DNA of 34,518 nt from Planctomycetales bacterium (GTDB lineage: Bacteria > Planctomycetota > Planctomycetia > Isosphaerales > Isosphaeraceae). The DNA is taken from the NCBI GenBank assembly GCA_027449865.1, contig DAIDKV010000065.1, positions 1 to 34,518 of the forward strand. Direction: 5' to 3'. The notes beneath the pieces were generated by a model. It was not told where the DNA came from and ran no database searches. It worked only from the letters and a program-made list of their open reading frames with translations. This document shows, one piece after another, positions 22,018 through 34,518 of the stretch (positions are counted from its first letter, which is position 1; every line of letters begins with the position of its first letter). Made by a program: the position numbers and the translations under genes.

Positions 22018-22977
22018 ATGAAAAGAATCGGATTGGTCGCGATCGCGATCCTGGTATCGGCCCCGGCCTGGGCGGCGGGGCCTGTCGAGGTGAAGCTCGA
22101 GGCGAAATTCCCGGAGGGTCGGGCGCTCCGATACCGGGTGCGCACATCGAAGAACCAGCTTGTAAAAAACCTGGGGATGGAGATGCCCTCCAACCAGGAT
22201 CGAACGGTCGTTTACGCGATCGAGGCGGGCCAGCGGCGGGGCGATGCGACGCGGCCCGTCTCGGTGAAGGTGGAATCGCTCCGAGAACGCCAGCGCCTTC
22301 CCGGCGGTCGCGACGTCCGACACGACTCAAAGGATCTGTCCGCCGACCGGGTCGCGCACCCGGACCTCGAATTCTTCAAGCCGATGTACCGGGTCGAGGA
22401 CAGCCTCGCGTTCACGGCGATCCTCGACGGCAAGGGGCGTCTCAAGGCCGTCGAGGGAGGCGAGGCCGTTCGATCAAAGCTCAGCACCCTCGACCCGGTC
22501 GCCGTCGACCTGCTCAAAAGCCGGCTCTCGGACGACTCGCTCGCCCGGGAATTCGAGCGGGCTCTCGGCCTCTCGGCCCTCCCCGACGGACCGGTCAAAC
22601 CGGGCGCCTCCTGGGAAAAAACCGAAACCGTCGACGTCGGCGCTGGAATCGAGCTGGTCCTCAAGAAGAAGTACGAGTACACCGGCGCCGAGAAGAAGGG
22701 GAATCGCGAGATCGACCGGATCAAGAGCCAGGTCCTGGAGGTGCATTGCCGGCAAGACGCCGACTCGTCCTCGCCGATGAAGCTCGCGAAGGAGGAGATC
22801 AAGGTCAGCTCGTCGGAGGGCTTCGTCCTCTTCGACCGGAGCGAGGGCCGGGCGGTCGAGGTTCGCGACCGGGTGCAGCTTGAAGGCCGGTTGACACTCG
22901 GGCACGACGGCCGGGACCAGCAGGTCGGGTTCGAGCTCACGATCCGGACCGAATCGCAACCGGCCGGAGGGTCGTAA
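22018..22977 (+). CDS. Exported DUF6263-type protein, first copy
   Basis: 319 residues from the ATG at 22018, which begins a clear signal peptide (MKRIGLVAIAILVSAPAWAA); the open frame upstream reads as non-protein. The mature part starts VEVKLEAKFPEGRALRYRVR, then mixed beta strands with a central DSLAFTAILDGKGRLKAVEG, and a late VLKKKYEYTGAEKKGNREID. It matches what I know of DUF6263, a planctomycete-rich family of exported proteins of unknown role. The next gene is a paralogue in tandem. No membrane anchor, lipobox or catalytic motif is seen. Confidence 0.75.
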   Translation: MKRIGLVAIAILVSAPAWAAGPVEVKLEAKFPEGRALRYRVRTSKNQLVKNLGMEMPSNQDRTVVYAIEAGQRRGDATRPVSVKVESLRERQRLPGGRDVRHDSKDLSADRVAHPDLEFFKPMYRVEDSLAFTAILDGKGRLKAVEGGEAVRSKLSTLDPVAVDLLKSRLSDDSLAREFERALGLSALPDGPVKPGASWEKTETVDVGAGIELVLKKKYEYTGAEKKGNREIDRIKSQVLEVHCRQDADSSSPMKLAKEEIKVSSSEGFVLFDRSEGRAVEVRDRVQLEGRLTLGHDGRDQQVGFELTIRTESQPAGGS

Positions 22978-23116
22978 GCCACGCGTGAAAATATCGCCGG
23001 TCCCCGGGCGAATCCACGGTCAATGGCGATCGGGACGACGGCCCCGACCGGGCGATCGATCGTCCCAATCCACCACGATCCGGCCCCGATCCGATCCGAG
23101 ACGCAGGAGACGACCG

Positions 23117-24070
23117 ATGAGGACCATTCGAGGCGCGCTGGCGACAGCGGCTCTGCTCGTGACGACCGCCTTGCCCTCGGCGCGGGCTCAGGTGAAGCTC
23201 GAGCACAAGTTTCCCGAGGGCCGAAAGCTGTCCTACAGCTCGGGCCTGAAGATCCACCGAATGCTCACCGTCGCCGGGATGGAGTTCCCGACCGACGTCG
23301 ACCAGGTCGTCGTCATCGCCCGGACGACAGGGAGCCGGGCGGCCGACGGTTCGCTGCCGGTCCGCGAGAAGATCGAGTCGTTCCGGGCCGAGCTCACTCT
23401 CCCAGGAAACATCCGGGTCGCCTTCGACTCGAAGGACGGTAAGCTCGAAACCGACGAGAAACAACTGGAATTCCTCGGCGACGTCTACCGGTTCATCCCC
23501 GGGATCGAGTACACAGTCGTCCTCGACACCCAGAACCACGTCAAGGCGATCGAGGGCGCCGAGAAGATCCAGGAAAAGGCCGAGAAGCTCGACCCCCAGG
23601 TACGCGACGCCCTCCGATCTCGGCTCTCGGCCGAGAAGCTCCGTACCCGGTTCAATCAGGAGTTGCAAATTCTCCCCGACGTCCTCGCCCGCCCCGGCGA
23701 GCCCTGGGAGCGAACCCTGCTCACCGAGGTCGTGGACATGGAACTGGAACTCCGCCAGAAATACGAATATATCGGCACAGTCAAGAAAAACGACCGGGAG
23801 CTGGATCAAATCTCGGTCCGAACGATCGGGGCGACCTACCGGGACGATCCGAACTCTCAGGCCCCATCCAAGGTGACGAAGGCGGATCTGAAGGTCGAAT
23901 CGTCGGATGGCACGATCCTCTTCGACCGGATGACGGGCCGGATCGTCTCGGCGAAGGAGAAGTTCCAGCTCAAGGGCACGCTCAGCTTCTCGGCCCAGGG
24001 GCAGGAGTTCCCCGGCGAGCTCGACGCGACGGTCGAGACCAACCAGGAGTTGCAAACGCCGGCGCGTTGA
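23117..24070 (+). CDS. Exported DUF6263-type protein, second copy
   Basis: 317 residues. The signal peptide is MRTIRGALATAALLVTTALP then SARA, cut before QVKLEHKFPEGRKLSYSSGL. It shares order and many words with the first copy: KLEHKFPEGR, the VDQVVVIART strand, YTVVLDTQNHVKAIEGAEKI, RQKYEYIGTVKKNDRELDQI and a C-terminal GTILFDRMTGRIVSAKEKFQ. The pair therefore arose by tandem duplication, then diverged well beyond half of positions by eye. The 139-base gap suggests a joint or closely linked transcript. Function unknown; an envelope role is inferred from export only. Confidence 0.75.
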   Translation: MRTIRGALATAALLVTTALPSARAQVKLEHKFPEGRKLSYSSGLKIHRMLTVAGMEFPTDVDQVVVIARTTGSRAADGSLPVREKIESFRAELTLPGNIRVAFDSKDGKLETDEKQLEFLGDVYRFIPGIEYTVVLDTQNHVKAIEGAEKIQEKAEKLDPQVRDALRSRLSAEKLRTRFNQELQILPDVLARPGEPWERTLLTEVVDMELELRQKYEYIGTVKKNDRELDQISVRTIGATYRDDPNSQAPSKVTKADLKVESSDGTILFDRMTGRIVSAKEKFQLKGTLSFSAQGQEFPGELDATVETNQELQTPAR

Positions 24071-24071
24071 G

Positions 24072-24242
24072 GATGGAGGCTGGGAGATCGCGAAGGCGCC
24101 GAGCAGCAACCATCCCGGCGGCTGCAACGCCGTGTTTGCCGATGGCTCGGTCCATTTCATCAAGAGCACGGTCAACCAGTTGACCTGGATGGCGCTGGGA
24201 TCGACCGACTCGGGCGAGACAATTTCCAGCGATTCCTATTGA
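24072..24242 (+). pseudogene. C-terminal fragment of a DUF1559 protein
   Basis: Right after the DUF6263 stop, an open frame without a start codon reads APSSNHPGGCNAVFADGSVH, then FIKSTVNQLTWMALGSTDSG and ETISSDSY before a TGA at 24240-24242. NHPGGCNAVFADGSVHFIK and the ending GETISSDSY are hallmark C-terminal residues of DUF1559, the abundant planctomycete prepilin-like proteins. The N-terminal prepilin signal and most of the roughly 300-residue body are absent. The 5' boundary of homology is near 24090. It is a relic, not a working gene. Confidence 0.85.
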
Positions 24243-24279: not shown

Positions 24280-24317
24280 ACGGCCGAGGGCGACCCTTTT
24301 CGGGTGCCCTCGGCCGT
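24280..24317. terminator. Strong hairpin between DUF1559 relic and CheA gene
   Basis: ACGGCCGAGGGC (24280-24291) pairs perfectly with GCCCTCGGCCGT (24306-24317). Inside it ACCC (24293-24296) pairs with GGGT (24302-24305) around a T-rich loop, with one bulged G. It lies between convergent gene ends and is followed on the plus strand by TTCCGCTTT. It is a good candidate two-way terminator and the best one in the window. Confidence 0.75.
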
Positions 24318-24345: not shown

Positions 24346-26853
24346 TCATCCCCTCGGCTCGCCGATCAAATCCGCGACCGTCGCCAGGAATGTTTTGTCC
24401 TGGAAGCTGCTCTTCGTCAGATAGGCGTTGGCGCCGGCGTCGAGGCCCTTGATCCGGTCCTCCTCGCGGTCCTTGTACGAGACGACCACCACCGGGATCG
24501 ACCGGAGCCTTGGGTCGTCCTTGATGTGCCGGACAAGCTGGATGCCGTCCATTCTGGGCATATCAATATCACTGACAACCAGGTCGTATCGTCCCGATCG
24601 AACGGAGTTCCAGCCGTCGACGCCGTCGACCGCGGTATCCACGAGGTAGCCTCGGCCTTCGAGCAACTGCCGCTCCAGCTCGCGGACGGTGATCGAGTCG
24701 TCCACGACCAGGACACGGCGAGCGGCGTGGGTCGGTCTCTCGGCGGCCGAGATCGAGGCCCCCTCCGCTCCCAGCCGGCCGAGGCGGCGGCCCGAGAGCA
24801 GGTTGTCGACCGATCGGATCAGATCCTCGACGTCGACGATCAGAACGGGCCAGCCGTCTTCCAGAACCGACGAGCTGCTGAGGTTCGGCACCTTCCCGAG
24901 TCGGGCGTCGAGCGGAGAGACCCTCAAATCCCGCTCGCCGAGGAAGCGGTCGACCACCACGCCGAAGCGATGGCTCCGGTCGCTGGCGACCACCACCGGC
25001 ATCGCCTCGCCGGGCCTTCGACCGGGCGCCTCGGGGGACGGTTCGAGGTCGAGAACCCGGGTCGCCTCGACCAGCCCAACAAGCTGCTCGTCGAGCATCA
25101 CGTGCGGCTTGCCTTCCAGGTCGCGCACATCGCCGGGCGCCACCCGGAGGATCCGGTCGATCCGGCTGAGCGGGAAGGCGTAGGGCTCGCCGGCGATCTC
25201 GACCAGCAGCGCCCGGATCACCGAGACCGTGATCGGGAGTTGCAGGATGAACCGGGTTCCGCGGCCCGGTCGGGTCGCGATCCGGACCGTCCCGCGCACC
25301 GCTTGCACCATGCTGTGAACGACATCCAGCCCAACCCCCCGGCCCGAGACCGAGGTCACCTGGTCCCGCGTCGAGAAGCCGGGCAGGAACAGAAAGTCGA
25401 GCAGCTCCGACTCGCCGAGCCGGCGCGCCATCGAGGGCTCGGCCAGCCCTCGCTCGACGACCTTCGCCCGAAGCCGGTCCAGGTCGATCCCCCGGCCGTC
25501 GTCGGAGAGGACAAGCTGCAACATCCCCGCGCGGTGGCGCGCCTCCAGCCGGATCGTCCCGGCGGGCGGCTTGCCGAGGCGCCGGCGCTCGTCGGGCGCT
25601 TCGAGGCCGTGGTCGATCGCGTTGCGGACCAGGTGATTCAGCGGCGCTTCGAGCCGGTCGAGAATGTCGCGATCGACCCCGGTGGACTCACCGGCGACCT
25701 CGAACCGCGCCTCCTTCCCCAGCTCCCGGGAGAGGTCGCGGACCAGCCGGGGGAAGCCGCGGAGGCCGTCGGCCATCGGCCGCATCCGGCTGGCGAGCAC
25801 CTCGTGATGCAGGCGGCTGGAGAGGTCCTCGCTGTCTCGCGTGAACGCTTCGAGCGATTCGACCACCTCGGCCATCGCCTGCATGCTGTCGGCGGCTCGC
25901 CCCCTCGCCCGGGCGAGCCGCTCGCGCCCGGCGGCCGTCGACGCCGAGCCGATACCCCCCTCGGCGCCCGCCATCCGGTCCTCCAGCACCTGGAGCGACT
26001 CGATCAGCCGAGACTGCCGCTCGCGCATCCGCCAGAGCGAGGCGACCATCGGCCGGAGCCGGTGGCTCTGCACCAGCGCCTCGCCAGCGAGACCCAGGAG
26101 CCGCGTCAGGCTCTCGGCCGAGACCCGAACCACCCGGTCGGCCTCGGGCGCCGGGCCAGGCTCGGGCTCGGGCGCGACCAAGGACGCCGCGGGTATCGCG
26201 GGCGAGGGAGATTCAGCGGGCGGGAACTCCGAGGAATCCGCGGGGGAAGCCCCGCCGATCGGCCGATCGGGCGAGGCTCCAGCCGATCCACGGGCTGGCT
26301 CAAACGCCTCGACGGGAAGCTCGTCCCTCGGGGATACCGACGCGGACGGCTCGCCATGCGACTCGCCCGGCTCGACCACTTCTGGGAAATGGGTTTCGGT
26401 TCCATCGCCCGTTATCCCCGGCTCCGATTTCTCCACCGATTCCGCCCGGCCATGCTTCACCGCGTCGAGCGCGACGACCAGCGCGTGGACCTCCTCGGCG
26501 TGCGACTCCTGCCAGGCCGGCAGCTCATCCTCGGCGACCTCGGCGACATTCACCAGGAAGTCGACGCCCCGCAGCAGGACGTCGACGGCCGCGGGAGTCA
26601 GGACGAGCTGGCCCTTCTGTGCCTCGACGAACGCGTCTTCCATCGCGTGCGCCACCTGGACCGCCGCGTCGATCCCGACAATCCGAGCCGCCCCCTTGAG
26701 CGAGTGCGCCGCTCGCATCAGCGGCTCGATCGTCGCCGCGCTCGCCGACGAACCCTCCAGCTCCACGAGCCCGGCCGAAAGCGCCGCCGTGTGCGCCTCG
26801 GCCTCCATCCGGAACAGGTCCATCAGCGAAAAGCCGCTCAGATCGTCGCTCAT
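24346..26853 (-). CDS. CheA-type hybrid histidine kinase with receiver (WspE-like)
   Basis: 835 residues. Order: Hpt domain with phospho-His50 (LMRAAHSLKGAARIVG), a Pro/Ser/Glu-rich linker (about 120-230), dimerisation helices (about 240-400), an ATPase domain with N-box LVRNAIDHGLEAP, then DDGRGIDLD and SGRGVGLDVV, a CheW-like domain (FPLSRIDRILRVAPG), and a C-terminal receiver with phospho-Asp762 (VVSDIDMPRMDG), Ser in VVVVSYKD and Lys in YLTKSS. All key residues are intact. It lacks a separate CheY/CheB-binding P2, as in WspE. It is the last gene of the chemosensory operon. The start has GGGAG nine bases upstream. Its usual output partners, a CheB and a GGDEF regulator, are not in the window. 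Confidence 0.94.
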   Translation of the reverse strand: MSDDLSGFSLMDLFRMEAEAHTAALSAGLVELEGSSASAATIEPLMRAAHSLKGAARIVGIDAAVQVAHAMEDAFVEAQKGQLVLTPAAVDVLLRGVDFLVNVAEVAEDELPAWQESHAEEVHALVVALDAVKHGRAESVEKSEPGITGDGTETHFPEVVEPGESHGEPSASVSPRDELPVEAFEPARGSAGASPDRPIGGASPADSSEFPPAESPSPAIPAASLVAPEPEPGPAPEADRVVRVSAESLTRLLGLAGEALVQSHRLRPMVASLWRMRERQSRLIESLQVLEDRMAGAEGGIGSASTAAGRERLARARGRAADSMQAMAEVVESLEAFTRDSEDLSSRLHHEVLASRMRPMADGLRGFPRLVRDLSRELGKEARFEVAGESTGVDRDILDRLEAPLNHLVRNAIDHGLEAPDERRRLGKPPAGTIRLEARHRAGMLQLVLSDDGRGIDLDRLRAKVVERGLAEPSMARRLGESELLDFLFLPGFSTRDQVTSVSGRGVGLDVVHSMVQAVRGTVRIATRPGRGTRFILQLPITVSVIRALLVEIAGEPYAFPLSRIDRILRVAPGDVRDLEGKPHVMLDEQLVGLVEATRVLDLEPSPEAPGRRPGEAMPVVVASDRSHRFGVVVDRFLGERDLRVSPLDARLGKVPNLSSSSVLEDGWPVLIVDVEDLIRSVDNLLSGRRLGRLGAEGASISAAERPTHAARRVLVVDDSITVRELERQLLEGRGYLVDTAVDGVDGWNSVRSGRYDLVVSDIDMPRMDGIQLVRHIKDDPRLRSIPVVVVSYKDREEDRIKGLDAGANAYLTKSSFQDKTFLATVADLIGEPRG

Positions 26854-26965
26854 CGCCGTGGCTCCCAGGGGGATTCGGATCGCGCTTCGTCCGCGGCTTT
26901 CGAGGATTTGGGGGATTTTGGAGATTCAAGATCTTTATTGATTAGCGGATCGACCTTCGGGACTT

Positions 26966-27685
26966 TTAGCCGTTGATTTCGCGAAGGCCGTCGAAAACTC
27001 GGCGCTCGTCGAGCAGGCCGATGGCGCGACTGTCCCAGGCAAAGACCGCCTCGCTGAAGCCGACGGCCGGGTTCGCGAGTGTCGAGGGAACTGGCTGCCA
27101 CTGGTCGCGAGGGACACGGCGGATGCCGACGATCTCATCCGCGCCGAAGACCCAGAACTCGGCCCGCCGTCGGTCGCGCAGAACAATCAGCCGCCGCGGC
27201 TCGCCCGTCGGCTCGATCCCAAGCAGTCCATGCAGCGAGACGCACAACTGCGCCCGTCCTTGCAGGTGGACCAGCCCGGCGAGCAGCCGTCCCGATCGGT
27301 GCGGGACCCGGTGGACCGGCCTTGGCGTCGTGACCTCGGCCACGGCTCGCGTGCGGAACGCCAGCGTTTCCTCTCCCAGCCGGAAGATCAGGACACTCGT
27401 CCCCTCGCGACGCGCCACTCTCCCCTCGTCGTCGTCTTCAGCACCCGATTCCCCGCGATCGGCCCGAGAATCCGCGTCGACGTCCGAGAGCCAGCTCGAC
27501 CACTCGGAAAGATACCCTGCTGGTGCCGGCCGGTCGAAGAAGTCGCGCGCCGCCGCCGCGAACGCCGGACAGTTCCGGCAATGCACGTAACGCTCCAGCT
27601 CCGGACAACTCCGGTCCCCGTTGACCCCGATCCGGTGCCAGCAATCCGTTCGGTCATTGGTTATTGGTAATGGGTCATTGGTCAT
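26966..27685 (-). CDS. CheW-domain coupling protein with Cys motif (WspD-like)
   Basis: 239 residues. The N-terminal segment CWHRIGVNGDRSCPELERYV and HCRNCPAF, with four cysteines, is the mark of WspD-type CheW proteins. An acidic linker follows, then a CheW domain (about 95-235: VLIFRLGEETLAFRTRAVAE, LLAGLVHLQGRAQLCVSLHG and RRLIVLRDRRRAEFWVFGAD). It should couple MCP arrays to the CheA kinase. The start is uncertain: ATG at 27685 has GAGG nine bases ahead; ATG at 27706 or GTG at 27721 would add 7 or 12 residues. The first residues, MTNDPLPITNDR, are encoded by a heptanucleotide repeat, so part of the N-terminus comes from repeat DNA. Confidence 0.88.
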   Translation of the reverse strand: MTNDPLPITNDRTDCWHRIGVNGDRSCPELERYVHCRNCPAFAAAARDFFDRPAPAGYLSEWSSWLSDVDADSRADRGESGAEDDDEGRVARREGTSVLIFRLGEETLAFRTRAVAEVTTPRPVHRVPHRSGRLLAGLVHLQGRAQLCVSLHGLLGIEPTGEPRRLIVLRDRRRAEFWVFGADEIVGIRRVPRDQWQPVPSTLANPAVGFSEAVFAWDSRAIGLLDERRVFDGLREING

Positions 27686-27688
27686 GGT
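27654..27688. repeat. Heptanucleotide tandem repeat at the WspD-like gene start
   Basis: Five in-phase heptamers run TCATTGG, TTATTGG, TAATGGG, TCATTGG, TCATGGT. They span the start codon at 27685 and the first codons of the CheW gene. Such degenerate AT-rich heptamers resemble the STRR repeats known from filamentous cyanobacteria. Their composition differs sharply from the GC-rich coding sequence around them. Confidence 0.7.
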
Positions 27689-27763
27689 GGTAACGCCTCG
27701 GGCCATTTCCGATCTCTTCACCTTCAGCGACTGAATGCATGATCCATAAAGACCGGCCAGTGA

Positions 27764-29020
27764 TCACTGACCACTGGATCGCGAAAGGCGTCGGCGGTAG
27801 CCGGCGGCGGCGGCGTGGTCGCCTCGGCGGTCGGCCAGGAGGGCCAGGGCGAGCAGGGCCTCGTCGTGGCGAGGGTCGAGATAGAGTGTCTTGTGGAAGC
27901 AATCTTCCGCGGCGCGACTGTCGCCCGCGGCCTGGCGGATCATCCCCATCAAAGAATACACCGCGGCTCCCGGTCCTTTCTGGCGAATTTGCCGCTCGCA
28001 GGCCGCGATCGCCTCGTCGTATCGGCCCAGGTTCGCCAGTTCGGCGGCCTCCTCCATCGGCGATCGCGGCGGGGATGGTGGAGGCGGAGCGGCGGGCTCG
28101 GGCCTGGGCTCGGACTCAGGCACCGGGAGCATCCGGACCAGCGGCGGCTCGGGGAGCATTCGCTCGGCGAGGATCGGCGTTAGCATCGGCATCGAGAACG
28201 GAGCATGGGGGGGATTGGGGTGGGTCGCCCTCCGATGGCAGAAGCAGCCCGACTCGCCGGTCGGGAGAAACCTCGGCGCCTGGTCGGGATCGTCGATCCG
28301 GTCGGCGTGACCGAGGAAGAGGACGCCATCGTCGGCCACGAGGCGATCGAGCGTCGACAGCACCCGGGCGCGCGAGGGGCGATCCAGGTAGATCAGCAGG
28401 TTCCGGCAGAAGACCACGTCGTACGGGTCGGAGCCGGCCAGAAGCTTCGGGTCGAGAGCGTTGCCGTGGACAAACCGGACGGTCGATCGGATCGCCGGGT
28501 CGAGCTCGAAGCCACGCGCGACCGGCCGGAAATGACGACGCCATTCCCCCTCGCCCCGGAAGGCGTTCGCCGAGTAAACCCCGCGCTGGGCGATTTCCAG
28601 AGATCTTGTGCTGACGTCCACCGCGTCCACCCGAAACCGGCGTGCGGGGAGTCCCGCGTCGAGCAACGCGATCGCGATCGAGTACGGCTCCTGCCCACCA
28701 GCACACGGAATCGAAAGCGCCCGGAACGCCGGCCGACCCGGACGCCCTACCCATCCCTCGCGCACCCGGTCGGAAAGCCATCGGAACGGCCGATCGTCGC
28801 GGAAGAACCAGCTCTCCGGAACCACCACCTCCTCAATCAACGCCTGCTGCTCAGCCTCCGATCCGCTCGCGATCGCCGCGTATTCCGAGACCTCGCGAAT
28901 CCCCAGATCCGCCATCCGACGCCGCACCGCTACCCCAATCACATGCGGACCCGTCGACGTCGGGTCCAGCCCAATCCGCCTCGCCAGCAGCGACTCGATC
29001 TCCTTTTGATCATTAGACAT
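27764..29020 (-). CDS. CheR methyltransferase with C-terminal TPRs (WspC-like)
   Basis: 418 residues. The CheR core has PESWFFRDDRPF (68-79), the AdoMet-binding IPCAGGQEPYSIAIALL (104-120), the ribose-binding acidic strand VDAVDVSTRSLEIAQRGVYS (131-150) and FCRNLLIYLD (204-213). It should methylate glutamates of the MCP encoded two genes upstream. A Pro/Glu-rich linker (about 280-330) leads to TPR repeats (about 335-410: LANLGRYDEAIAACERQ; RAAEDCFHKTLYLDPRHDEA), the WspC architecture. The start ATG at 29020 follows AT-rich spacer DNA without a clear ribosome-binding site. No CheB is present to remove the methyl groups. Confidence 0.93.
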   Translation of the reverse strand: MSNDQKEIESLLARRIGLDPTSTGPHVIGVAVRRRMADLGIREVSEYAAIASGSEAEQQALIEEVVVPESWFFRDDRPFRWLSDRVREGWVGRPGRPAFRALSIPCAGGQEPYSIAIALLDAGLPARRFRVDAVDVSTRSLEIAQRGVYSANAFRGEGEWRRHFRPVARGFELDPAIRSTVRFVHGNALDPKLLAGSDPYDVVFCRNLLIYLDRPSRARVLSTLDRLVADDGVLFLGHADRIDDPDQAPRFLPTGESGCFCHRRATHPNPPHAPFSMPMLTPILAERMLPEPPLVRMLPVPESEPRPEPAAPPPPSPPRSPMEEAAELANLGRYDEAIAACERQIRQKGPGAAVYSLMGMIRQAAGDSRAAEDCFHKTLYLDPRHDEALLALALLADRRGDHAAAAGYRRRLSRSSGQ

Positions 29021-29059
29021 TCTTGGAAGACTTTGAAATTTTTAAATAGTAACCTATAA

Positions 29060-29536
29060 TTAGTTGATGGTCGATGCCTCGTTCGATGGGTCGGGGCGGA
29101 TGATCGAGGCGAGGCGATCCACGGCGATCATTGGGACGAAGCCCCGGTCGAGGCGGGCGACTCTCGCCAGATAAGGCGCCCTGGGCAGTTGGACCGGGGC
29201 CGGCTCAACCTGTGCCGGGTCGATTGTCGTCAGATCGATGACATGCTCGGCGATCAGGCCCGCGAGTCGGGGATCTTCCTCCCCTGAATTTTGACGGCTC
29301 TCCGCCATTTTGACCAGGATGATCCGCGTGCTGAGCCGATTCTCGGATGGCGACGAACCCAGCAAGAGCCCGAGGTCCACCACGGGAACGACCTTCCCGC
29401 GATACGAGAGCAGTCCCGCGACAAACCCCGGCGCATGCGGGACCACCCGCAACTCCACCCGCGGCACCACCTCGATCACATCCACGACGTCCACTCCATA
29501 TGGCTCGCCGCTCACCGTGAAGGTCAATAGAAGCAT
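29060..29536 (-). CDS. CheW coupling protein (WspB-like)
   Basis: 158 residues, nearly all one CheW domain: MLLLTFTVSGEPYGVDVVDV, IEVVPRVELRVVPHAPGFVA, GLLSYRGKVVPVVDLGLLLG and a final RGFVPMIAVDRLASII. I chose ATG at 29536 because CheW proteins start at this strand; upstream in-frame starts (29569, 29614) would add residues encoded by AT-rich spacer DNA. It links MCP and CheA. It stands between the MCP and CheR-TPR genes, exactly where wspB lies in wsp operons. RxILVKM plus a charged loop (SRQNSGEEDPR) is a small local insertion. Confidence 0.9.
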   Translation of the reverse strand: MLLLTFTVSGEPYGVDVVDVIEVVPRVELRVVPHAPGFVAGLLSYRGKVVPVVDLGLLLGSSPSENRLSTRIILVKMAESRQNSGEEDPRLAGLIAEHVIDLTTIDPAQVEPAPVQLPRAPYLARVARLDRGFVPMIAVDRLASIIRPDPSNEASTIN

Positions 29537-29659
29537 GGTTCTTTGTAATTTGTGGTTGCTGGATTCCATCGCGTGTCGAGCGTGGATCAAGGATGCACTG
29601 AGACGATCGACCACTAGCTAATTTCAGATGCCAGATGACTAATTACAAAGAACAAGGAA

Positions 29660-31681
29660 CTAAGAGAGGGTAAATCGGGAGACTTCTTCCTTGAGTTCGC
29701 CGACGGCTTCGCGGAGGCGTTCGGTGGCCTTGTTGAACTCGCGGATGGAGGTGGAGGTCTGACCGGCGGCCTCGCTGAGCCGGGTCATGGCCTCTCGGAT
29801 CTGATCGGCGCCCTGGGACTGGACGCGCATGCCCTCGGTGACCTGATCGAAGCGATGGTGCTGGGCCTGGACGCCACTGATGATCTGACCAAGCTGGGCG
29901 CCAAGCTGGCCGACGTCGCCGACGACCTGGCGGACGTTTTCACTGAATTTGTCCATCTCCATCACGCCGGCCGAGACGCTGTACTGCATTTCCTTGACCA
30001 TCCGCTCGATGTCGAGCGTCGCCACGGCGGTTTGATCGGCGAGGCGGCGGATCTCCCGGGCGACGACCAGGAAGCCCAGGCCGTACTCGCCGGCCTTCTC
30101 GGCCTCGATCGCGGCGTTGATGGAGAGGAGGTTCGTCTGGTCGGCCACCTTGGTGATCGTGGTGACGACCAGGTTGATGTTGGCGGCTCGCTCGCTGATC
30201 ACTGAGAGCTTCGAGCCAATCGAATCGGTCGACTCGGCAAGCTGCCGCATCGTGCCGTCCATCCGGGTCAGACCCTGCTGGCCCGTCACCGCCATCCGCG
30301 CTGCCTGGTTGGCCGCCTGGTTCAGCTCGTTCATCGTCTTGAGCAGTTCCTGGCTCGTCGCCGAGATTTCATTGACGGCCGCCGCGGCTTCGTTGGTCGA
30401 GGCGCTGTAGTCGTACACCGATTGCTCTTGCTGGCGAGAGGCCGCCGAGATCTCCGTCGCGGTGGATAAAAGCGCGATGCTCGACCGCTGGATCCGGGCG
30501 ATCAGCGAGCGGAGATCCTGGATCATTTTCCGCATCGCCTGGAGGAGCGTTCCGACCTCGCCGGGCGCCTCGGCGTCGGTCGTGGCGGTCAGGTCGCCGG
30601 CGGCGATCCGTTCGGCGACCATCGCCGCTTCTCGGATCGGGCGAGTCAGCGCTCGGGCCACCATCAGCGCCACGCCAACGACAATGAAGGCCGTGGCGGC
30701 GAGCAGAATCGCGACGATGATGGCCTGGCGACGGGTCAGCGCGTAGGCCTCGGAGACGTCCTGCTTGACGACCATCCCCCACCGGTACGAGGGAAGATAC
30801 GACCAGACGGCCACCGTCTCGACGCCCCGATAGTCGATCTCCCGGCCATAGCCCCGCTGGCCGCGGAGGGCGCTTTGCATCGCGGTGGCGCGGTCGGATC
30901 CCATCTCGCCCTCGTGCCGAAACCCGCTCCCCGGGTCGTGCCGCGGCGGTGCGATGAAGGCAAACCGTCGCCCCTCCAGTGTCGCGACCATCGCCTCGCC
31001 CGTGTCGCCCAGGCCACTGTAATCGGTGAACGCCTGAAAAATCTCGTGGTTGCCCAGCTCCAGCGCGATGTAGCCGACAATCCGCCCCTCGGGATCGTAA
31101 ACCGGTCCCGAGAGGAAGGCGGCCGGCTCGTCGCGGCCCGGATAGATCTGGTAGTCGGATAGATCCGGCTGGAGCAACATCCGCACCCGGTCGAAGACCT
31201 CCGCCAGCTCGGTCGACCGGAGCGGACCCGTCAGCAGGTTGGCGCCGGGATCAATGTCGGAACCGTAGTGGAGCAGCGTGTTCCCCTCGGGATCGAATAA
31301 CAAGGCATTTTGATACCCATAGGTCTCGATAAATCCGCCCAGAACCTGACGAGCGCGGTCGATGAGCTCGACGCGTTCCGGTGAGCCGGCCCGGCTTCTG
31401 GCGAGCTTCTGTGCGGCCTCCATGACCGAGGGAGACCGGCCGAGAATCGCGAGGTCGCCCCTGCGCTCGCGGATGAACTGTTCGAGCTGGAGGGTCTTGG
31501 CCTCGGAGATCGCCAGGAGGTTGCGGCGGATGGTCTTCTCCAGCGACTGTGCCGAGATGGCCTGGGTCAGCAGGGTGAGCACGCCGCAGGGGATCAGCGA
31601 GATGCACAAAAAGAAGAAGAGCAGGTGCGCGATGATTCGCGTGCGGGTCCACCAGGCTCGGAGCAACCGGGGCGGCGTCAT
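29660..31681 (-). CDS. Methyl-accepting chemoreceptor with Cache domain (WspA-like)
   Basis: 673 residues from the ATG at 31681; upstream in-frame sequence is Arg/Pro-rich and unlike protein. TM1 is at about 17-41, an extracytoplasmic Cache-like sensor (about 45-315) contains [20 protein letters not shown] and [22 protein letters not shown]2 is at about 319-343, then HAMP ([20 protein letters not shown]) and the signalling domain. The hairpin tip [20 protein letters not shown] then [20 protein letters not shown] (509-546) closely matches WspA-type receptors rather than the flagellar E. coli class. It probably senses an envelope or surface cue, possibly through the binding protein encoded just upstream (67-base gap). 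Confidence 0.93.
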
Positions 31682-31748
31682 CTCGGGTCGAGCCTCGATC
31701 GGGTCGGGGGGTTCAGGGCAAAGGTTTTCGATCGGTGGTGTTCGGGGC

Positions 31749-33098
31749 CTACGCCTTCTTCTCGGCCTCGGTCTTCGCGGGCGCGGGCGATGGTGATGGC
31801 TGGGGCTTCGGCCGGGTGGGTGTCGATCCGGCCGCGGCGGCCCCTGTGCCCGGGTTGGCCCAGCCGCCCCATTGCTGGTGCAGGCCCTCCAGAAACGCCT
31901 CCCAGACCACGCGGGGACGCGAGGCCGGATACGGCAGCGGACGGACCGTTTTGCTGCTGGCCCAGACAACGTCAAACTGCCCGTCGGCCCGGATCTGACC
32001 GATATAAACCGGCCGCCAGGTGTGGAGCGACCGTCGGGCCACGGCGATGATCCCCTCGGGAGCGCTCATCGTCTGGCGACGCACCGCCTTGATGACCGAG
32101 GCGATCTCGTCGGTCTGCACCTCCTCGACGGCCTGCGCCCAGAACTTCACGCTGTTGTAGGCGGCGACGATCACGTCGCTGGTCACCCGGTCGCTCCCGT
32201 ACCGGGCACGGAACTTCCGGACGAACTGGCGGTTCTCCTCGTTGTCGAGGCTCTGGAAGTAGTTCCAGGTGGCGTAGTTGCCGACCATCTCGCGGAGCGG
32301 CAGGTGCCGAAGCTCGTCCTCGGCGATGCTAAACGAGATGACCGGCACCACCTTCGGCCCGACGCCGGCCTCGGCCAGCTTCCGATAAAACGGTGCGTTG
32401 GTGTCGCCGACGACCGTGCTGATCACCACGTCGGGATGCGCCTGCTTGATCGCGCCGACCAGCCCGTCCACGTCACTGGTCCCGTAGAGAATATATTCCT
32501 CGCCGATGACCTCGGCCCCCAGCGCCGTGATGTAGTCGCGAGCGATCGCGTTGACAGCGTGCGGCCAGACGTAGTCCGAACCGGCCAGGAAGAATCGACG
32601 AGCCTTCAGCCGGTCGTACGCCCACTTCACCGAGGGGATCACCTGCTGATTGGGCGCCGCGCCGATGTAAACAATGTTCGGCGACTCCTCCAGCCCCTCG
32701 TAGGCCATCGGATAGAAGAGAAGGTGATGCTCCTTCTCGACGATCGGCTTGACGGCCTTTCGGCTGGCGGAAGTCCAGCATCCGAAGATGGCCGAGACCT
32801 TTTCGTCCTCGATCAATCGATCGGCCTCGCGGGCGAAGGTGGGCCAGTCGGACCGGCCGTCGGCCTTGACCCACTCGACCTGCCGACCGCCGAGCAATCC
32901 GCCAGCCTGGTTGATCTCCTCCAGCGCGAGGACCTCGGCGTCGATCATCGACTCCTCGCTGATCTTCATCGGGCCGGTCCGCGAGTGGAGCAACCCGACC
33001 TTGATCGGCGCGAGCCTGCCGGTTAGCCGAGGCGCCGCCCAGATCGCCAGACCCGCCGCGACGATCAGCCCGATCAGACCCGTCAGCCACCATCGCAT
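31749..33098 (-). CDS. UrtA/AmiC-like substrate-binding protein heading the chemosensory operon
   Basis: 449 residues from the ATG at 33098, preceded by GGAGGGAG; a longer frame start at 33170 lies upstream of the promoter box and is unlikely. A hydrophobic N-terminus ([20 protein letters not shown]) with no clear cleavage site suggests a signal anchor. The body is a type I periplasmic-binding fold of the urea/short-chain amide group: [81 protein letters not shown] Pro/Ala-rich tail ends it. No ABC permease or ATPase is near; the next genes are an MCP and Che proteins. I infer a ligand sensor, not a transporter part. Confidence 0.9.
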
Positions 33099-33849: not shown

Positions 33850-34518
33850 TCAATCGGTCGCCTGGAGCGCCTCGCTTGCCGCCCGGAGCCAGAGGGAAAC
33901 CGCGACGGCGCCGGGATCGGGTCGGCCGAGGGCGCGGTCGCCGAGGTAGCTGGTCCGGCCTCGCCTCGGCGACATCGATGCGGTCGCTTCGGCCCCGTGT
34001 TGGGCCGCATCGACCGCCTCAGCAAGGGCGGCCATCGCCGACTTCCCGGAGCGCGGGCCCGAGGCGAGCGCCTCGGCGGCCGGGAACAGGGCGTCGAGCA
34101 TCGTTCGTTCGCCGGCACTGGCTCCGCCCAGCTCGCCGATCCCGACCGCGCCGGCGTGGAGGGCCTCGGCCCAGGTCGATGCGGCGGCGGGATCGTTCGA
34201 TCGCAGCGTGGCGGCAGCGCGGAGGAGAAGCATCGCATAAAGCGGACCCGACGTCCCGCCGAGGGCTCGCTGGAGCGTCAGGGCGAGTTCGTGGAGGGTC
34301 GCGGCGGGGTCGTCGAGCGGGCAGGCGGGCAGGGTCTCCAGAACGGCCCGGGCGCCTCTGGTCAGGCTGATCCCGATATCGCCGTCGCCGACGGCCTGGT
34401 CCAGCTCGGTCAGTTGCGGCTCGGCCTTGATGAGCGCCTCGGCCGCCGATCGAATCGCGGCGCCGAGGCGACGTCCGGTCGCGGTTTGAGGCGGCCCGGC
34501 CGCGGGCCTCGGCGCGGG
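33850..34518 (-). CDS. Dihydroxyacetone kinase, DhaL (nucleotide-binding) domain, partial
   Basis: At least 222 residues, cut by the right edge on its N-terminal side. The DhaL pattern is clear: ELDQAVGDGDIGISLTRGA (Mg-ATP-binding Asp residues; the usual His after GDGD is Ile), ALGGTSGPLYAMLLLRAA, GELGGASAGERTMLDALFPA and a C-terminal RGRTSYLGDRALGRPDPGAV. The domain phosphorylates dihydroxyacetone bound by a DhaK domain. A Pro/Ala-rich linker (PAPRPAAGPPQTATG) precedes the first helix, suggesting a single-chain DhaK-DhaL enzyme using ATP, with DhaK beyond the edge. Its stop lies eight bases from that of the convergent coiled-coil gene. Confidence 0.9.
   Translation of the reverse strand, partial: PAPRPAAGPPQTATGRRLGAAIRSAAEALIKAEPQLTELDQAVGDGDIGISLTRGARAVLETLPACPLDDPAATLHELALTLQRALGGTSGPLYAMLLLRAAATLRSNDPAAASTWAEALHAGAVGIGELGGASAGERTMLDALFPAAEALASGPRSGKSAMAALAEAVDAAQHGAEATASMSPRRGRTSYLGDRALGRPDPGAVAVSLWLRAASEALQATD

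Follow-up and report, generated by a model that had tools for sequence, protein, structure and literature searches.

A Wsp-class chemosensory operon of an Isosphaeraceae genome and its probable phosphatase output at a second locus

The operon and its sensing head

Here we analyzed a stretch of 34,518 bases (the window), which is the whole of contig C65 in the draft genome (8.48 Mb, 99% complete) of a Planctomycetales bacterium of the family Isosphaeraceae, and which carries on its minus strand a run of six genes coding for a substrate-binding protein (SBP), a chemoreceptor (methyl-accepting chemotaxis protein, MCP), a CheW, a CheR with tetratricopeptide repeats (TPR), a second CheW with a cysteine motif and a CheA fused to a receiver domain (REC) (Table 1). 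The initial annotation had described these six same-strand genes in this order, had equated the last five with wspA-B-C-D-E in order and domain make-up, and had noted that CheB and a GGDEF protein are missing from the operon. All of this held: the six genes have strong Pfam support, the arrangement MCP-CheW-CheR(TPR)-CheW-CheA(REC) on one strand is that of Azoarcus (L119) and Mesorhizobium (L120), and the genes called in the window include no CheB, no GGDEF and no further REC gene. The WspD-position proteins of Azoarcus and Novosphingobium share the cysteine motif CPELERYVHCRNC with this second CheW. The further claim that the CheA receiver is the only visible phosphate acceptor stands for the window and fails for the genome, which holds seven CheB domains, four GGDEF proteins and the gene pair described below.

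Table 1. Features of the six-gene operon and of its 3' flank, in positions of the window.
Feature	Position	Strand	Support
UrtA-like substrate-binding protein (Peripla_BP_5/6)	31749..33098	-	Pfam 493 bits (Peripla_BP_5)
Chemoreceptor, WspA position: dCache sensor, HAMP, WspA-like signalling domain	29660..31681	-	MCPsignal 104, HAMP 38 bits
CheW, WspB position	29060..29614	-	Pfam CheW 91 bits
CheR methyltransferase with C-terminal TPR, WspC position	27764..29020	-	CheR 125 bits, TPR_1 29 bits
CheW with N-terminal CPELERYVHCRNC motif, WspD position	26966..27721 (start alternatively 27685)	-	Pfam CheW 64 bits
CheA: Hpt, HATPase, CheW, REC; WspE position	24346..26853	-	Pfam; Wsp-class clade
Strong stem-loop lacking a U tract, in the gap between the converging cheA and DUF6263 genes	24280..24317	-	fold z -5.3
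49-residue C-terminal fragment, N-terminal part missing	24093..24239	+	C-terminal homologues at other loci (52-58% identity)

Phylogenetic analysis places the CheA firmly in the Wsp class. It belongs to a clade of 96 rows, which takes in the canonical WspE-position rows of Azoarcus, Cupriavidus, Burkholderia, Novosphingobium and Mesorhizobium and is set apart, with an SH-aLRT support of 100, from the remaining CheAs that these genomes encode, the CheAs of C274 and C15 falling outside it. The window CheA is 44-53% identical to the WspE-position proteins of Burkholderia, Azoarcus and Mesorhizobium. An ordinary flagellar chemotaxis class, the other placement that the initial annotation had considered, is ruled out by this tree. 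The features of the ACF (alternative cellular functions) class are present as well, namely the CheR-TPR in the operon and a multidomain response regulator, REC-PP2C, on contig C143. Other genomes of the family contain a second class of CheA-REC, 33-40% identical and outside the Wsp clade (L076, L077, L158 and L159), in loci where CheR, CheW, MCP and CheB stand in a different order. The CheAs of several relatives (L029, L031, L035, L039, L042, L044 and L045) have two tandem Hpt-like stretches, against one in the window CheA.

The sensing head consists of the SBP and the chemoreceptor. The SBP scores 456.8 bits against the NCBIfam UrtA model, under its cut-off of 492.75, its best PDB relatives being 8tg1, 7s6e/7s6f and AmiC 1pea (UrtA/AmiC family), and its N-terminus, judged by eye, looks like an uncleaved membrane anchor and contains no lipobox. 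The SBP has the GCWTSASRK stretch of UrtA, but several close relatives (L050, L052, L053 and L060) carry a changed version of it, which leaves urea as no more than a possible ligand. The protein has no paralogue elsewhere in the genome. A role as the transport protein of a UrtABCDE system was rejected on account of the score below the UrtA cut-off, the sole genome copy and the MCP that follows in place of permeases; in Methylumidiphilus an SBP homologue precedes apparent transporter permeases. In the case of the chemoreceptor, the signalling tip closely matches that of Azoarcus WspA, and the dCache_1 match (38 bits) lies under the Pfam cut-off of 45, the L251 orthologue reaching 51 bits. The SBP gene adjoins the MCP gene in about 20 relatives, and SBP-dCache receptor pairs also occur in Planctomycetota outside the Wsp operon and away from any cheA. 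One Elusimicrobiota genome has an SBP followed by a dCache-HAMP histidine kinase (L255:9362-12696), that is, a two-component output behind the same sensor pair. This portable pairing supports a role of the SBP as a co-receptor that would touch the dCache domain of the MCP. Surface sensing, which had been raised together with chemical sensing in the initial annotation, is not supported, as a dCache sensor with a UrtA-like binding protein points to a dissolved ligand.

Probable adaptation and output genes at a second locus

The initial annotation had supposed that adaptation and output must be encoded elsewhere or differ, and a search of the whole genome for CheB and GGDEF genes located suitable candidates on contig C143, where a CheB-REC (Pfam CheB 185 bits) is followed by a REC-SpoIIE/PP2C protein (133 bits). 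This CheB is 57% identical to the CheB that directly follows cheA in relatives, and the REC-PP2C, of 400 residues, is 68-73% identical to the gene after that CheB; all 14 sequences compared retain the catalytic aspartates of PP2C and D63 of REC. The four GGDEF proteins of the genome comprise two with an FHA-like N-terminus (by eye), one REC-GGDEF on contig C79 and one divergent protein. The 24 kb located 3' of cheA on C65 do not contain the pair, and the flanks of about 8-12 kb on each side of the pair on C143 do not contain the operon, so that, as far as a draft assembly can show, the two loci are truly apart.

A survey of relatives for the same gene order covered 45 genomes of the order, 28 with this CheA, 15 without it and two incomplete assemblies (G016 and G018) in which the pair is present and CheA was not detected. 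Orthologues of both CheB (at least 51% identity) and REC-PP2C (at least 57%) were found in all 28 CheA-bearing genomes, and the CheB orthologue in none of the 15 without CheA. In nine genomes (G004, G009, G010, G015, G023, G024, G027, G037 and G038) the pair immediately follows cheA on its 3' side, and in three (G021, G028 and G030) it is separated from cheA by a few genes. Four genomes have the pair on the cheA contig at a distance of 14-42 kb, and eight, the one analyzed here among them, have it on a different contig; in the remaining four, of genus g20, CheB alone remains with the Wsp operon. The closed or near-closed genomes G001 and G031 have the pair 20-42 kb away from the operon. Because the directly linked state is spread over deep family branches of the CheA tree and recurs in other phyla, the separation is the derived state. 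The initial annotation had reckoned with a recent local loss, to be recognized by a CheB and a GGDEF regulator beside the operon in relatives: a CheB-REC and a regulator are indeed found there, directly 3' of cheA, but the regulator is REC-PP2C, and the genes have moved and were not lost. Judged by orthology and gene order, the window operon is a split system and not a truncated one. We consider it probable that this Wsp-class (ACF) chemosensory system is divided between two loci, with the CheB of C143 serving adaptation and the REC-PP2C serving as output.

Several observations weigh against this reading. The pair lies on another contig than CheA, so that its wiring to CheA rests on orthology and co-occurrence, with no physical linkage; the pair on C143 has no linked STAS or anti-sigma gene, though the genome has 10 STAS domains; and the REC-GGDEF protein of C79 is conceivable as a target of CheA. 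The REC-PP2C orthologue stands beside a different che cluster in G039-G041 of genus g20 (loci L142, L143 and L144), and G005 and G008 carry REC-PP2C without this CheA, so that the regulator may serve another CheA too. From these last cases comes the best surviving alternative, in which REC-PP2C would be a hub shared by the Wsp-class CheA and a second che cluster and not a dedicated equivalent of WspR. The CheB that stays with the Wsp operon in G039-G041 fits it, and the split has removed the operon-level pairing of regulator and CheA. In most relatives and in other phyla, however, the Wsp operon has no response regulator other than REC-PP2C, CheB and the CheA receiver, and we regard a shared output as unlikely. 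Contig C116 of the same genome (L078:9409-13548) encodes a STAS protein beside two CheB domains and a CheR-containing protein, and this separate cluster might itself feed a partner switch.

Beyond cheA the window contains the stem-loop of Table 1, and the strength that the initial annotation had attributed to it was borne out by folding: a stretch of 116 nucleotides reached a minimum free energy of -61 kcal/mol, with no shuffled sequence equally good. The hairpin is not followed by a U tract, and we therefore did not call an intrinsic terminator. Between the hairpin and the convergent DUF6263 gene sits the 49-residue fragment, which we take to resemble a DUF1559-type protein; this C-terminal remnant at the 3' end of the operon could possibly be a rearrangement scar. 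Two tandem related genes of DUF6263 type follow (22018-24070, plus strand). Homologues of these genes are found in G019, at 2.5 kb from the CheB/REC-PP2C pair, and in G021, where they immediately precede the SBP gene (L150:5187-6158 and L057:18299-19210), suggesting that the modules are old neighbours. At the contig end a partial gene (33850-34518, minus strand) presumably encodes a DhaL-type (dihydroxyacetone kinase) domain.

Receiver kinship and distribution beyond the order

Comparison of the receiver domains pointed to a close relationship between the putative output regulator and WspR. The receivers of the PP2C proteins and those of WspR form one clade (support 99/95), outside which fall the REC-GGDEF of the genome itself, the REC-PP2C beside the che cluster of C15, and the receivers of CheA and CheB. 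The C143 receiver is 55-64% identical to four of the five WspR receivers tested and 47% identical, over a longer alignment, to the fifth, from Novosphingobium. Two operons contain, beside REC-PP2C, a second regulator with a WspR-type receiver, fused to an HD domain in one (L243:6563-7753) and to an adenylate/guanylate cyclase domain in the other (L229:7362-8822). An origin of the GGDEF-bearing WspR inside the PP2C branch was considered and set aside: WspR is nested there in one tree, yet grouping the PP2C rows, which had been gathered with a PP2C query, costs nothing (p-AU 0.51), so that the receiver tree fixes no direction of the swap between PP2C and GGDEF.

These data also bear on whether the operon could be a genuine Wsp system, the stand-alone REC-GGDEF of C79 being its output and cyclic di-GMP (c-di-GMP) its messenger. 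The genome does combine such a protein with a Wsp-class CheA, but the C79 receiver lies outside the clade of WspR and REC-PP2C receivers, and we accordingly rejected this protein as a relocated WspR. Moreover, no REC-GGDEF gene lies near this cheA in the stretches fetched (up to about 10 kb on each side, less at contig ends) from the 28 genomes of the order and from 16 further Planctomycetia loci, whereas REC-PP2C adjoins it in many, which makes a c-di-GMP output improbable. Least credible of all is a degenerating or truncated remnant, in which CheB and output were lost locally and the operon is silent or the CheA receiver is sole sink and output, for, although the window alone has neither gene and a truncated DUF1559-like fragment borders cheA, none of the six genes is disrupted, all are widely conserved across the order, and every CheA-bearing genome of the order has the pair, the closed or near-closed ones included.

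The survey beyond the order consisted of a class sample of Planctomycetia and of one scan of the contigs of named genomes with a REC-PP2C alignment. The Planctomycetia loci (n = 16) were picked through CheA and thus not selected by output; REC-PP2C stands beside the cluster in 12 of them, usually as the first gene with CheB as the last, and REC-GGDEF in none. The alignment scan returned 80 loci; 33 of them, spread across ten named phyla, have the regulator downstream of a Wsp-type CheA and on its strand; with the phosphatase as the query, this result shows the spread of REC-PP2C and not its relative frequency. The order MCP-CheW-CheR-CheW-CheA-CheB-REC-PP2C occurs in Lentisphaerota, Thermodesulfobacteriota, Ignavibacteriota, Acidobacteriota and Elusimicrobiota, and likewise in Verrucomicrobiota, Chlamydiota, Myxococcota and Pseudomonadota. 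Tentatively, and with slightly more doubt than confidence, we propose that wsp-order REC-PP2C systems may constitute a widespread undescribed branch, present in at least ten phyla, in which chemosensory arrays would be connected to Ser/Thr-phosphatase (partner-switch) control, the c-di-GMP Wsp system being an output-swapped offshoot and the Isosphaeraceae form one that is led by an SBP-dCache pair and split.

Proposed signalling route and known systems

In the mechanism that we infer, the window locus would provide sensor and kinase, that is, the tethered SBP, the dCache-HAMP chemoreceptor, two CheWs, CheR-TPR and a receiver-bearing CheA. The SBP, loaded with a presumably dissolved ligand, would make contact with the dCache domain of the MCP and thereby alter the activity of CheA. 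Phosphotransfer would then reach both members of the unlinked pair: phosphorylated CheB would reset the receptor methyl groups placed by CheR, and the REC-PP2C, phosphorylated on its WspR-type receiver, may remove the phosphate from a STAS-type anti-sigma-factor antagonist or some other Ser/Thr phosphoprotein, the predicted physiological response being a shift in gene expression. The scheme makes a testable prediction, namely phosphotransfer from CheA to REC-PP2C followed by dephosphorylation of STAS, in a group, the planctomycetes, whose chemosensory function has been little studied.

No description of the wsp-order REC-PP2C branch, of its breadth, of the receiver shared with WspR or of the SBP-led split form was found in the open-access papers searched. 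The principle of a chemosensory system that acts through a phosphatase is itself not new. ACF clusters with CheR-TPR have multidomain response regulators, with a family-2C phosphatase among the output types, although such architectures have been listed only (PMC3447774); the system described here resembles them in joining a CheR-TPR cluster to a REC-PP2C regulator. In Shewanella oneidensis, Che1 is thought to act on RpoS via the REC-PP2C-kinase protein CrsR, through a CrsR-CrsA partner switch (PMC9855816, PMC6482189). Both che systems encode a regulator of REC-PP2C type and hence a chemosensory route to a partner switch, but Che1 is of class F7 and CrsR also contains a kinase/anti-sigma domain and is linked to an antagonist, CrsA, whereas the C143 protein consists of REC and PP2C only and has no linked STAS gene. 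The SBP, for its part, is of the same family as UrtA and AmiC and differs from them in scoring below the UrtA cut-off, in having no paralogue, in being membrane-tethered and in its pairing with a chemoreceptor instead of permeases.

The closest known relative is the Wsp system of Pseudomonas, Burkholderia and Azoarcus (WspA-F and WspR), with which the system analyzed here shares the A-B-C-D-E order and domains, the MCP tip, the class of CheA, the F position of CheB in relatives and an output regulator whose receiver belongs to the WspR receiver clade. It differs in the output, which is PP2C and not GGDEF, in the sensor, which is dCache plus SBP whereas canonical WspA is of 4HB type (4HB_MCP_1 in Azoarcus), and in that CheB and the regulator are unlinked to the operon. 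Wsp is usually regarded as a pathway that senses surfaces and signals through c-di-GMP; in the present system its array, kinase class and receiver occur with a phosphatase output, and such an output on a Wsp array separates the chassis from the messenger. The swapping of outputs on a common receiver (PP2C, GGDEF and, in neighbouring regulators, HD or nucleotidyl cyclase) would thus represent a natural experiment in the modularity of signalling.

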